From: Candidatus Sumerlaeota bacterium | GTDB taxonomy: Bacteria; Sumerlaeota; Sumerlaeia; MWCT01 | Assembly (NCBI GenBank): GCA_026398545.1 | Contig: JAPLSR010000267.1 | Coordinates: 1-33,292 of the forward strand | Direction of reading: 5' to 3' | DNA length: 33,292 nucleotides | Shown: positions 18,742-21,518 of the stretch, piece after piece | Layout: every line of letters begins with the position of its first letter | Numbering within the stretch: the first letter of the stretch is position 1 | Position numbers and translations under genes: made by a program | The notes under the pieces: model-generated | Told to the model about the DNA's origin: nothing | What the model saw: only the letters and a program-made list of their open reading frames with translations | Databases searched by the model: none

Positions 18742-18819
18742 CGGGGTGTAGCGCAGTTGGTTTAGCGCGCAGCGTTCGGGACGCTGAGGTCGCCGGTTCA
18801 AATCCGGCCACCCCGACCA
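18742..18819 (+). tRNA. tRNA-Pro (anticodon CGG), CCA encoded
   Basis: CGGGGTG...CACCCCG acceptor stem, CAGCG-TTCGGGA-CGCTG anticodon arm (CGG), GCCGG-TTCAAAT-CCGGC T arm, A discriminator + CCA. Confidence 0.95.
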
Positions 18820-18822
18820 TAA

Positions 18823-19215
18823 GAAACATTTAACGAATTATATGGATACGAGACTCCAAGTAAAGCTCGAATGATAATAAAAGCTGGTGATGTAATAATA
18901 GCTTCGCTTTCTGGTTCACTAAATAATATAGGGCTAGTTCCAAAACAATTAGATGAAGAATTAGCCAACACGGTTTTCTTCATCATTAATTCAGAGAGAA
19001 GCATCAGCGAATTTTTATTTTTGTTTTTTAGATCAGAAATTTTAAAGATACAATTAGAACAGATGACTGCCGGCGCAATTATGGCGGCTATTCCCAAAGG
19101 TGTTTTCGGTGATTTATTGGTTCCGCTTATTCCTAAACAAAAACAAGAAAAAATAATCGAGTTAGTAAAACAATCTGATGAAGCAATGAAAAGATCGGAA
19201 AAAGTTATTGTTTAA
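18823..19215 (+). pseudogene. Truncated type I restriction specificity subunit (HsdS C-terminal portion)
   Basis: Open frame from just after a TAA at 18820: ETFNELYGYETPSKARMIIKAGDVIIASLSGSLNNIGLVP...GAIMAAIPKGVFGDLLVPLIPKQKQEKIIELVKQSDEAMKRSE; HsdS-like TRD end and conserved helix; no N-terminal half, no hsdM/hsdR in window. Confidence 0.7.
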
Positions 19216-19272: not shown

Positions 19273-20328
19273 ATGGCCAAGAAAACAACCAAACAAACAA
19301 AACCCGCCTCTCGTTTAGAGTTAATTAAGCAGATTGGAAAAGAACGAAATTCTGCTGTGATTTGCTATGTTACGGGAGACAGAGAGAATTTTAATACAAA
19401 AATTGGAGAGGATGTTATTCCGATATTTTTTAGGCATCTTGAGTTAATTAGCAATAGAAATAATATAGATCTATTTCTTTACACCAGAGGCGGAGATATG
19501 GTTGTGCCAATTAGAATAGTAAAATTATTAAAAAGTTATTGTAAGAAATTTAGCGTTCTAGTTCCTTACAGGTCACATAGTGCTGGGACGCTTATCGCCC
19601 TTGGTGCTGATGAAATTGTAATGACTAAATTAGGAGAACTAACACCAGTAGATCCCACAACAGAACACCCATTCAATCCGCAAGATCCAGTAGATAAAAG
19701 GAAAGTTATTCCTATTAGCGTTGAGGATATTACTTCATACTTGCTTTTAGCAAAGGACAAAGGTATGGTTAAAGGAAATAAAATGGCTGAAATCTTCGAT
19801 AATCTTACAAAACATTTATATCCAGACTCTAAACATCTTCATCCCCTAGCGTTAGGAAATGTTTACCGCGCTCAAAGAATGATTAGAATTTTGTCTCAAA
19901 GATTATTAAGTTTACATATGGACATTGAAAAAGAAAGTAGTAAAAAAACCATTGACAAAATTGTTAATGAAATTACCAGCGATATATGTATACATAATTA
20001 TCCTATTTACCGAGATGAAGCAAAAGCATTAGGACTTCCAATAATTATGCCAGAGGCCAAGTTGGGGAAATTGCTATGGGATTTATACGAAAAGTATGCT
20101 GAAGATATGGAACTTAGAAAACAATTTAATCCTTTAGAAATTTTAGGACAAGAAAATGGTAAAAATATAAAATATGGAGCGGCTTATATTGAAAGCGTTG
20201 AGGCACAGGATACTTTTTATTATGATATTCGTATAAATAAAATTATGACTCCCCAAGTACCAGCCCAGCTCCCCTTGCCAGCAATAAATGTAAACGTGGC
20301 AGGTTTTTCTTGGGAAAAAGTGAGGTAA
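19273..20328 (+). CDS. SDH-type (SppA/ClpP-fold) serine protease family protein
   Basis: LFLYTRGGDMVVPIRIVKLLKSYCKKFSVLVPYRSHSAGTLIALGADEIVMTKLGELTPVDPT matches the ClpP/crotonase-like 'serine dehydrogenase proteinase' family core, candidate nucleophile in SHSAGT. Confidence 0.82.
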   Translation: MAKKTTKQTKPASRLELIKQIGKERNSAVICYVTGDRENFNTKIGEDVIPIFFRHLELISNRNNIDLFLYTRGGDMVVPIRIVKLLKSYCKKFSVLVPYRSHSAGTLIALGADEIVMTKLGELTPVDPTTEHPFNPQDPVDKRKVIPISVEDITSYLLLAKDKGMVKGNKMAEIFDNLTKHLYPDSKHLHPLALGNVYRAQRMIRILSQRLLSLHMDIEKESSKKTIDKIVNEITSDICIHNYPIYRDEAKALGLPIIMPEAKLGKLLWDLYEKYAEDMELRKQFNPLEILGQENGKNIKYGAAYIESVEAQDTFYYDIRINKIMTPQVPAQLPLPAINVNVAGFSWEKVR

Positions 20329-20330
20329 TT

Positions 20331-20756
20331 ATGAATACAACAAACACATCAATTATTAGTGAAAACATTGATTACAACCCACAGCAGGTGGATTCGGTTG
20401 GAAGTTTTCCTATTTTTGCTTTTCCAGACTTTCTTCGCATCGTCATACCTTCGAAAGATGATATTTTCAAAAGAAAAACCGAAAAGTTAGAAATTGAAAA
20501 ATTAAACATTCCTAAAGATGTAGATATACTTGAATTTGCTAAAAATTTTTATTTGGACCACAAAGAAGCTTTATTAAAGAAATATAGAAACAGATATGTT
20601 GCTATCCTGAATAATAAAGTTGTTGGCTCCGATAAAGATTTTTCAAAATTAGCCCAGAGAGTTTACGCAAAATATGGTTATCAAACTATTTATATGCCTT
20701 TTGTTGAAATTGAAGAAAGGATAGTAAGAATTACTTCCCCGAGAATTAAAATTTAA
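20331..20756 (+). CDS. DUF5678-like protein
   Basis: C-terminal KKYRNRYVAILNNKVVGSDKDFSKLAQRVYAKYGYQTIYMPFVE matches the YxGxYVAxxxxxVVxxGxDxxEL pattern; ATG 2 nt after the preceding stop. Confidence 0.65.
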   Translation: MNTTNTSIISENIDYNPQQVDSVGSFPIFAFPDFLRIVIPSKDDIFKRKTEKLEIEKLNIPKDVDILEFAKNFYLDHKEALLKKYRNRYVAILNNKVVGSDKDFSKLAQRVYAKYGYQTIYMPFVEIEERIVRITSPRIKI

Positions 20757-20784
20757 TAATTTATGTATGGCTAAATAAAAATCA

Positions 20785-21165
20785 ATGTTAGCTTATCCTT
20801 ACAATACAAACAAATTTAACCCTCCAGCTCCTGTTTTTGAGGTTTCTTTATCTTCTCCAACATCTCAAGGAGAAATTATAAAAATTCCAGCTCTCCTTGA
20901 CTCGGGAGCAGATATAACAGTAATTCCACAGAATGTTGCTCAACAATTACAGCTTAAATATGTAGACGAGATTACGGCGACTGGTTACGACGGGGTTGAA
21001 AAAAAGGCGTTTGTCTATTCAGTAAAAATTATTTTTGATAATTTAGGCGATTTTATAATCAAAGTGATTATCTCGGAAAGAGATTATGTCTTAGTTGGAA
21101 GAGATATACTTAACAAATGGTCTGTGTTTTTAAAAGGACGAAATAAGATTTTTGAAATTAGTTAG
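20785..21165 (+). CDS. Retropepsin-like aspartic protease
   Basis: KIPALLDSGADITVIPQNVAQQL (D-S-G-A-D catalytic loop) and YVLVGRDILNKW (retropepsin-like LxGRDxL). Confidence 0.85.
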   Translation: MLAYPYNTNKFNPPAPVFEVSLSSPTSQGEIIKIPALLDSGADITVIPQNVAQQLQLKYVDEITATGYDGVEKKAFVYSVKIIFDNLGDFIIKVIISERDYVLVGRDILNKWSVFLKGRNKIFEIS

Positions 21166-21326: not shown

Positions 21327-21518
21327 TTAAAATCCCTTTGGACTTTGGAAACAGCGGGGAAAATAGGTAGATATCTATTCTTTCGTCATTTCTTCACGCA
21401 TGCTTACGGTTTCCTTATAGATGAGGCAAAATTAAAACCTTTAATGAACAACATCCCAAACGTTTATTCTGAGTTCAAAGGGGAAATAGATAATTATCTC
21501 ACAAAAATTGAAGGATGA
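21327..21518 (+). pseudogene. Remnant of a HepT-like HEPN ribonuclease gene
   Basis: Frame without ATG: ...GKIGRYLFFRHFFTHAYGFLIDEAKLKPLMNNIPNVYSEFKGEIDNYLTKIEG*; RHFFTH fits the Rx4H motif and the C-terminal pattern of HepT-like proteins. Confidence 0.55.

Follow-up and report, generated by a model that had tools for sequence, protein, structure and literature searches.

A recurrent cassette of a ClpP-fold serine protease, a DUF5678 protein and a retropepsin that resembles a mobile toxin-antitoxin operon

Organization of the cassette

The 33,292-nucleotide (nt) stretch analysed here, referred to as the window, is positions 1 to 33,292 (forward strand) of contig JAPLSR010000267.1 in assembly GCA_026398545.1 of Candidatus Sumerlaeota bacterium. 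It carries a cassette of three genes encoding an SDH-type serine protease of the ClpP fold (SDH), a small DUF5678 protein, and a soluble retropepsin-like aspartic protease, an arrangement reminiscent of a toxin-antitoxin operon with an added protease. The genes are codirectional and, as the first-pass annotation of the sequence had described, tightly spaced, with gaps of 2 nt between SDH and DUF5678 and 28 nt between DUF5678 and the retropepsin gene. The features of the cassette are as follows.

19273..20328, + strand: SDH-type ClpP-fold serine protease gene (351 aa; PF01972)
19579..19581, + strand: Ser103 codon, presumed nucleophile of SDH (identical in 101/101 SDH sequences)
19651..19653, + strand: Asp127 codon of SDH, candidate catalytic residue (identical in 101/101)
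19993..19995, + strand: His241 codon of SDH, candidate catalytic residue (identical in 100/100)
20331..20756, + strand: DUF5678 gene, in the putative antitoxin slot (141 aa; PF18929)
20331..20516, + strand: N-terminal extension of the DUF5678 protein, residues 1-62, predicted mostly disordered and at the position of the SDH small partner
20517..20684, + strand: folded DUF5678 domain, residues 63-118 (AlphaFold2 [AF2] confidence, pLDDT, about 90)
20785..21165, + strand: soluble retropepsin-like aspartic protease gene, in the putative toxin slot (126 aa; Pfam)
20899..20901, + strand: Asp39 codon of the retropepsin, catalytic (D-S-G-A, by motif comparison)

The earlier family assignments hold for all three products, each of which matches Pfam above the cut-off. 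SDH matches PF01972 SDH_protease at 1.1e-18 (67.7 bits, cut-off 31.3), the DUF5678 protein matches PF18929 at 2.5e-8 (34 bits, cut-off 23.2), and the retropepsin matches PF13975 (2.6e-7), PF00077 RVP (6.3e-7) and PF13650 (2.6e-6). Neither protease reaches the cut-off of its NCBIfam model, with SDH scoring 78.3 bits against the equivalog NF047768 (250 required) and the retropepsin 39.1 bits against TIGR03698 clan_AA_DTGF (cut-off 57.35). The motifs RSHSAGT in SDH and LLDSGADITVIP in the retropepsin are both present. The DUF5678 gene was listed as a 148-aa open reading frame (ORF) starting at an upstream TTG at 20310; the most likely start is the ATG at 20331, 2 nt past the SDH termination codon, and the aligned relatives begin at the same place.

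The AF2 model of SDH is of high confidence (pLDDT 90.8, pTM 0.88), and Foldseek matches it to SppA (3rst, 3.7e-5) as well as to ClpP and 1510-N (probability 1.00 and E 4e-5 to 3e-4 over the three); among solved folds, SppA and ClpP are the closest. Profile, fold and conserved serine agree in placing it in PF01972 and the ClpP-SppA superfamily, and Ser103, Asp127 and His241 form a plausible candidate catalytic triad. The model also has a C-terminal beta extension at about residues 296-349. In the DUF5678 protein, residues 63-118 are modelled as a helix-helix-strand-strand-helix fold for which no match was found in the PDB. Residues 1-60 have a mean pLDDT of about 35-53, and the low confidence over residues 1-62 is as expected if this segment is a flexible tag. 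The retropepsin is single-lobed in size and is expected to be a dimer.

Recurrence of the cassette in unrelated genomes

A scan of 85,462 species genomes recovered three SDH proteins that are 71-78% identical to that of the window (loci L022, L023 and L024), encoded in metagenome-assembled genomes (MAGs) labelled Aerophobetes, WOR-3 (L023) and an unclassified bacterium. In all three, SDH is followed by DUF5678 and then retropepsin, with gaps of 2-5 nt and 2 nt, respectively. The four SDH proteins form a single clade in the SDH tree (support 99), and the three relatives have unrelated flanking genes and no tRNA gene beside the cassette. The co-occurrence that the first-pass annotation had singled out is thus recurrent, the ordered trio being present in four genomes including the window, which is more than chance would give. 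The catalytic residues are likewise kept in homologues, with Ser103, Asp127 and His241 conserved in about 100% of 101 SDH sequences, and D-[ST]-G-A and GRD present in each of the four retropepsins of the cassette. Purifying selection acts on each of the three genes, with dN (0.13-0.34) far below dS (0.8-2.4; SDH pairs with L023 left out).

The distribution is patchy, at one of 17 genomes in the phylum of L022 and four of 334 in the phylum of genome G102, and a search of 39 further genomes from the phylum of the window gave no relative of its DUF5678 protein. Most simply, the cassette would have been put together once and then have moved across phyla as a single unit.

SDH genes and their small partners

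A broader set of 111 SDH loci was assembled, with a score of at least 100 and near-identical copies removed; several of these loci are MAG contigs. A partner was defined as a same-strand ORF of 50-160 aa starting between -60 and +90 nt from the SDH termination codon. Such an ORF follows SDH in 102 of the 111 loci, as compared to 311 of 853 gene ends that served as controls in these loci (36%; Fisher p about 8e-31, which overstates the evidence since the loci share ancestry). Where a locus lacked annotation, its genes were called with simple ORF rules and not by a trained gene finder, and the counts of partners and toxins depend on these rules. The dN/dS values of the partner ORFs are mostly 0.06-0.27, indicative of purifying selection, and they are therefore real genes. 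The partners are short and Ser/Thr-rich, lack a convincing match to any Pfam family, and often overlap the SDH termination codon by 8-11 nt.

Pairs of SDH and partner are also present in IMG/VR contigs. In two E. coli prophages (L018 8001-8975 and L248 2891-3886) SDH lies on the opposite strand between the holin and antiterminator Q genes, its partner is a 59-aa ORF without RefSeq annotation, and 47 of 5426 complete E. coli genomes contain the stretch at nearly its full length. In Firmicutes of the Desulfotomaculia type, the cluster that contains SDH and its partner also holds ymxH, dapB and dpaA-like genes, which points to a housekeeping or sporulation-linked role for the pair. TepA-YlzJ of Bacillus may be an analogous pairing of a ClpP-fold protease with a small gene.

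Exchange of toxin modules behind SDH

At about 20 SDH loci the partner is longer and is followed by a further small gene. Partners that precede a toxin gene or a gene in the toxin slot are 79-157 aa in length with a median of 104 aa, compared with 64 aa otherwise (p 7e-9), and this additional length fits an added antitoxin domain. Pfam identifies the third gene as PemK/MazF in L028 and L088, as Fic/Doc in L079 and L086, and as PIN in L115 and L101. Pooled over 36 third genes there are four Fic, three PIN, two PemK, two RVP and one weak ParE-like match; among 100 control third genes no toxin family was seen to match two or more (25 of 86 control families were listed, such that single matches are possible). 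A MazF-like gene lies directly after SDH in L217 (NCBIfam 7e-4, below the cut-off).

Along the SDH tree, the toxin labels of 20 rows switch at least 11 times. One clade of nine rows (support 97) contains Fic, MazF, ParE and PIN operons together, and the clade of the cassette SDH groups with the MazF operon of L028 (support 98). Toxin modules have thus been swapped behind the same protease, and the retropepsin counts as one of several interchangeable modules.

Two further families of small proteins are found in the toxin slot, after SDH and a lengthened partner, one in L067 (11406-11723) and L074 (7745-8053) and the other in L104 (11376-12107) and L114 (2580-3002), and are candidates for new toxins. 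The second and third genes of L063 looked HicB/HicA-like by eye, an identity that Pfam, NCBIfam and PADLOC did not bear out.

DUF5678 and retropepsin as a separate pair

DUF5678 and retropepsin also form a widespread two-gene pair, usually without SDH. Of 301 genomes sampled from the phylum to which the Anaerolineales genome G103 belongs, 42 carry PF18929, and motif searches of the fetched loci show a retropepsin ORF directly downstream of about two thirds of the small DUF5678 proteins. All ten neighbours tested match the Asp_protease_2 or gag-asp profiles, and no SDH gene was seen beside these pairs in the loci fetched from that phylum. The pairs have the organization of type II toxin-antitoxin systems in being small, codirectional, adjacent, recurrent and mobile. 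In L147 a ribbon-helix-helix domain lies N-terminal to DUF5678 (PF07704 1.4e-6, RHH_1 0.0025), which is how a DNA-binding antitoxin is built.

In Chloroflexota, DUF5678 has a second architecture, in which it is joined N-terminally to proteins of about 550-680 aa that contain the motif LYLVGGAVRD (L154, L155, L157, L159, L163-L165, L167, L168, L171, L172, L175 and L178), in which the fusion partner looks by eye to be CCA or poly(A) polymerase-like. Because of these fusions to enzymes, DUF5678 is not exclusively antitoxin-like.

Genomic setting of the cassette

The first-pass annotation had placed the cassette in an island, and it does lie in an AT-rich stretch adjoining a tRNA gene, with a GC content of about 0.32 over the cassette and about 0.50 in the flanks. 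Two features mark its left end.

18742..18819, + strand: tRNA-Pro (CGG), at the left border of the AT-rich island (ARAGORN; GC step)
18823..19215, + strand: 5'-truncated hsdS/MAD5-like specificity-subunit fragment in the flank (NCBIfam, PADLOC)

The island begins at the 3' end of tRNA-Pro. The ORF at 18871-19215 matches NCBIfam MADS5 (1.9e-9), PADLOC mad5 (7.9e-13) and Specificity_I, and the hsdS-like frame stays open up to the tRNA-Pro edge. That this frame is cut at the 3' end of the tRNA gene suggests an integrative element that has decayed or recombined. The island contains no recognised integrase, and no second copy or direct repeat of the tRNA-Pro 3' end was found in the window, including at the right island edge. 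A 57-aa ORF at 21345-21518 carries RHFFTHAY, which resembles the RX4HXY motif of HepT toxins, and is perhaps a HepT remnant at the right end of the island; it is absent from the matches of a HepT-like profile search of the genome.

Several other identities were considered and rejected. A MADS or type I restriction system is represented by just the truncated hsdS/mad5-like piece, which is not conserved with the cassette (it is missing beside it in L022 and L024); there is no complete set of hsdM, hsdR, hsdS or mad genes around the cassette, and no match to Methylase_S over the cut-off in the genome. PADLOC has no match to SDH or DUF5678 and only sub-noise matches to the retropepsin. A phage origin is not supported, as viral contigs contain no relative of the cassette retropepsin.

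There are no defence genes near the cassette in L022 or L024, and the window has just the hsdS fragment. Inspection of other SDH loci shows hsdS overlapping and preceding SDH in L004, an HsdR-like gene overlapping an SDH-family gene in L253, and hsdS-like genes near L028 and L074. These type I restriction neighbours, together with the prophage insert, suggest by their proximity that SDH could have a role in defence.

Proposed function and alternative explanations

We propose that the cassette is a tripartite mobile operon of the toxin-antitoxin type, an interpretation that we regard as a little better than evenly balanced. The retropepsin would be the effector, in the toxin slot, and the folded C-terminal domain of the DUF5678 protein would bind it and hold it back. 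The 60-residue disordered N-terminal extension would serve as a substrate or docking segment for SDH, whose action on it, on whatever trigger, would lead to loss of the DUF5678 protein. The freed retropepsin could then cut cellular or invader proteins, resulting in growth arrest or abortive infection. The toxin-antidote part of the logic put forward by the first-pass annotation is thereby retained, as is the suggestion there that DUF5678 is a substrate or inhibitor; as to the part concerned with defence, L022 and L024 show no defence genes close to the cassette. More broadly, where one protease is joined to many toxin families, the simplest function common to all would be to govern how stable the antitoxin is, by means of tags of one type. 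It is conceivable, although we hold this more tentatively and at somewhat less than even chances, that there is a general class of operons in which SDH recognises a short N-terminal tag fused to unrelated antitoxins, so that a single sensor protease controls diverse toxins (MazF, Doc, PIN, ParE-like) and, in the cassette, the retropepsin as a toxin that is itself a protease.

Several observations weigh against this proposal. Most loci with SDH and partner have no toxin gene, and the Desulfotomaculia-type Firmicutes (L033-L075) keep the two at a conserved chromosomal locus; SDH and partner are therefore not a toxin-antitoxin system in themselves. The C-termini of most partners match no antitoxin family in Pfam, and the WOR-3 SDH copy (L023 1-120) has an in-frame TAA near the contig start that reflects either decay or an assembly error. 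A conserved segment was defined from partners in Chloroflexota and archaeal operons (TSGLxSxxQLIDTTxxxIFSF...TS), and its profile comparison with the N-terminal extension in the window was not significant, with 45 of 200 shuffles scoring as high. The kinship of the extension to the other partners is thus drawn from position, length and disorder only.

An account that fits nearly as well as the antitoxin tag is that SDH is itself toxic and is held by its small partner, and that a partner fused to a second antitoxin domain restrains two toxins that are released together. SDH and partner do occur alone in E. coli prophages, IMG/VR contigs and many genomes, like a simple toxin-antitoxin pair, and the 8-11 nt overlap with the SDH termination codon is in keeping with this. 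The fixed position of the Desulfotomaculia-type pair beside ymxH, dapB and dpaA-like genes is, however, unlike that of a selfish addiction module, and no recognised fold is seen in the partners, which are small and rich in Ser/Thr; we consider a two-effector arrangement unlikely. Less likely again is a proteolytic cascade, in which DUF5678 mediates the processing or activation of one protease by the other and no toxin-antitoxin logic applies. Two intact proteases flank a protein with a predicted disordered segment of 62 residues, and the trio is kept together in four genomes, but retropepsin and DUF5678 are usually found without SDH, and the SDH clade is also associated with non-proteolytic toxins, so neither protease generally needs the other. 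The special two-protease cascade of the first-pass annotation is accordingly not supported in the form given there, with the SDH clade pairing with many other toxin modules.

The accessory genes could also have piled up in a mobile island without a common function, as the AT-rich surroundings next to a tRNA gene, the hsdS fragment and the patchy distribution might lead one to expect. Order and near-identical spacing are nevertheless maintained in four genomes with unrelated flanks, all of the genes are under purifying selection, and partner and toxin genes are enriched after SDH. A chance or passenger grouping is already contradicted by these data, and we consider it very improbable.

Relationship to known systems

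In the open papers searched there is no description of a system composed of SDH, DUF5678 and retropepsin, in agreement with the first-pass annotation, and none that links retropepsins to toxin-antitoxin systems. The HigBA1-SecB(TA) toxin-antitoxin-chaperone (TAC) system of M. tuberculosis has a dedicated proteostasis factor as its third gene, and TAC antitoxins of the unrelated families HigA, MqsA and HicB bear an added, variable terminal extension that confers chaperone dependence and is transferable as the ChAD tag (PMC5105189). Like TAC, the class to which the cassette belongs joins a dedicated proteostasis gene to unrelated toxin-antitoxin families, and the protein in the antitoxin slot is extended. 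Unlike TAC, its proteostasis component is a ClpP-fold protease rather than a SecB chaperone, and the cassette has no chaperone gene. The extension would be N-terminal, and the toxins would include MazF, Fic/Doc, PIN and retropepsin.

In Microcystis, the gene for the orthocaspase MaOC1 directly precedes a ParDE-like module, and MaOC1 cleaves the antitoxin and frees the toxin (PMC7935541). The cassette shares with this locus a protease gene placed directly before a module that is, in the cassette, a putative toxin-antitoxin pair. MaOC1 differs in being a caspase-fold cysteine protease at one locus with a known toxin, whereas SDH is a recurrent ClpP-fold serine family with many exchangeable toxins, and SDH operons carry an extended protein in the antitoxin slot. 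With the SDH-type serine proteinases (PF01972, NF047768) the cassette SDH shares the fold and the Pfam model, but its clade carries a partner gene. The cassette retropepsin has the D-[ST]-G-A and I-G-R-D motifs of other prokaryotic retropepsins (PF13975, PF13650, TIGR03698), and differs from them in being encoded after DUF5678 in a protease operon.

The cassette has the look of a self-poisoning switch under the control of a protease, of a kind not described before. Selective antitoxin degradation and toxin release is an open question. According to a 2021 review, the degradation of antitoxins in bacteria had been linked only to general AAA+ proteases and to a single homologue of caspases (PMC8165232). 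If the proposal is true, an operon-encoded non-AAA+ protease beside a tagged antitoxin would make this question directly testable. It would also provide a function for DUF5678 and for many bacterial retropepsins that are orphans, and a protease would join the enzymes that occupy the toxin slot.
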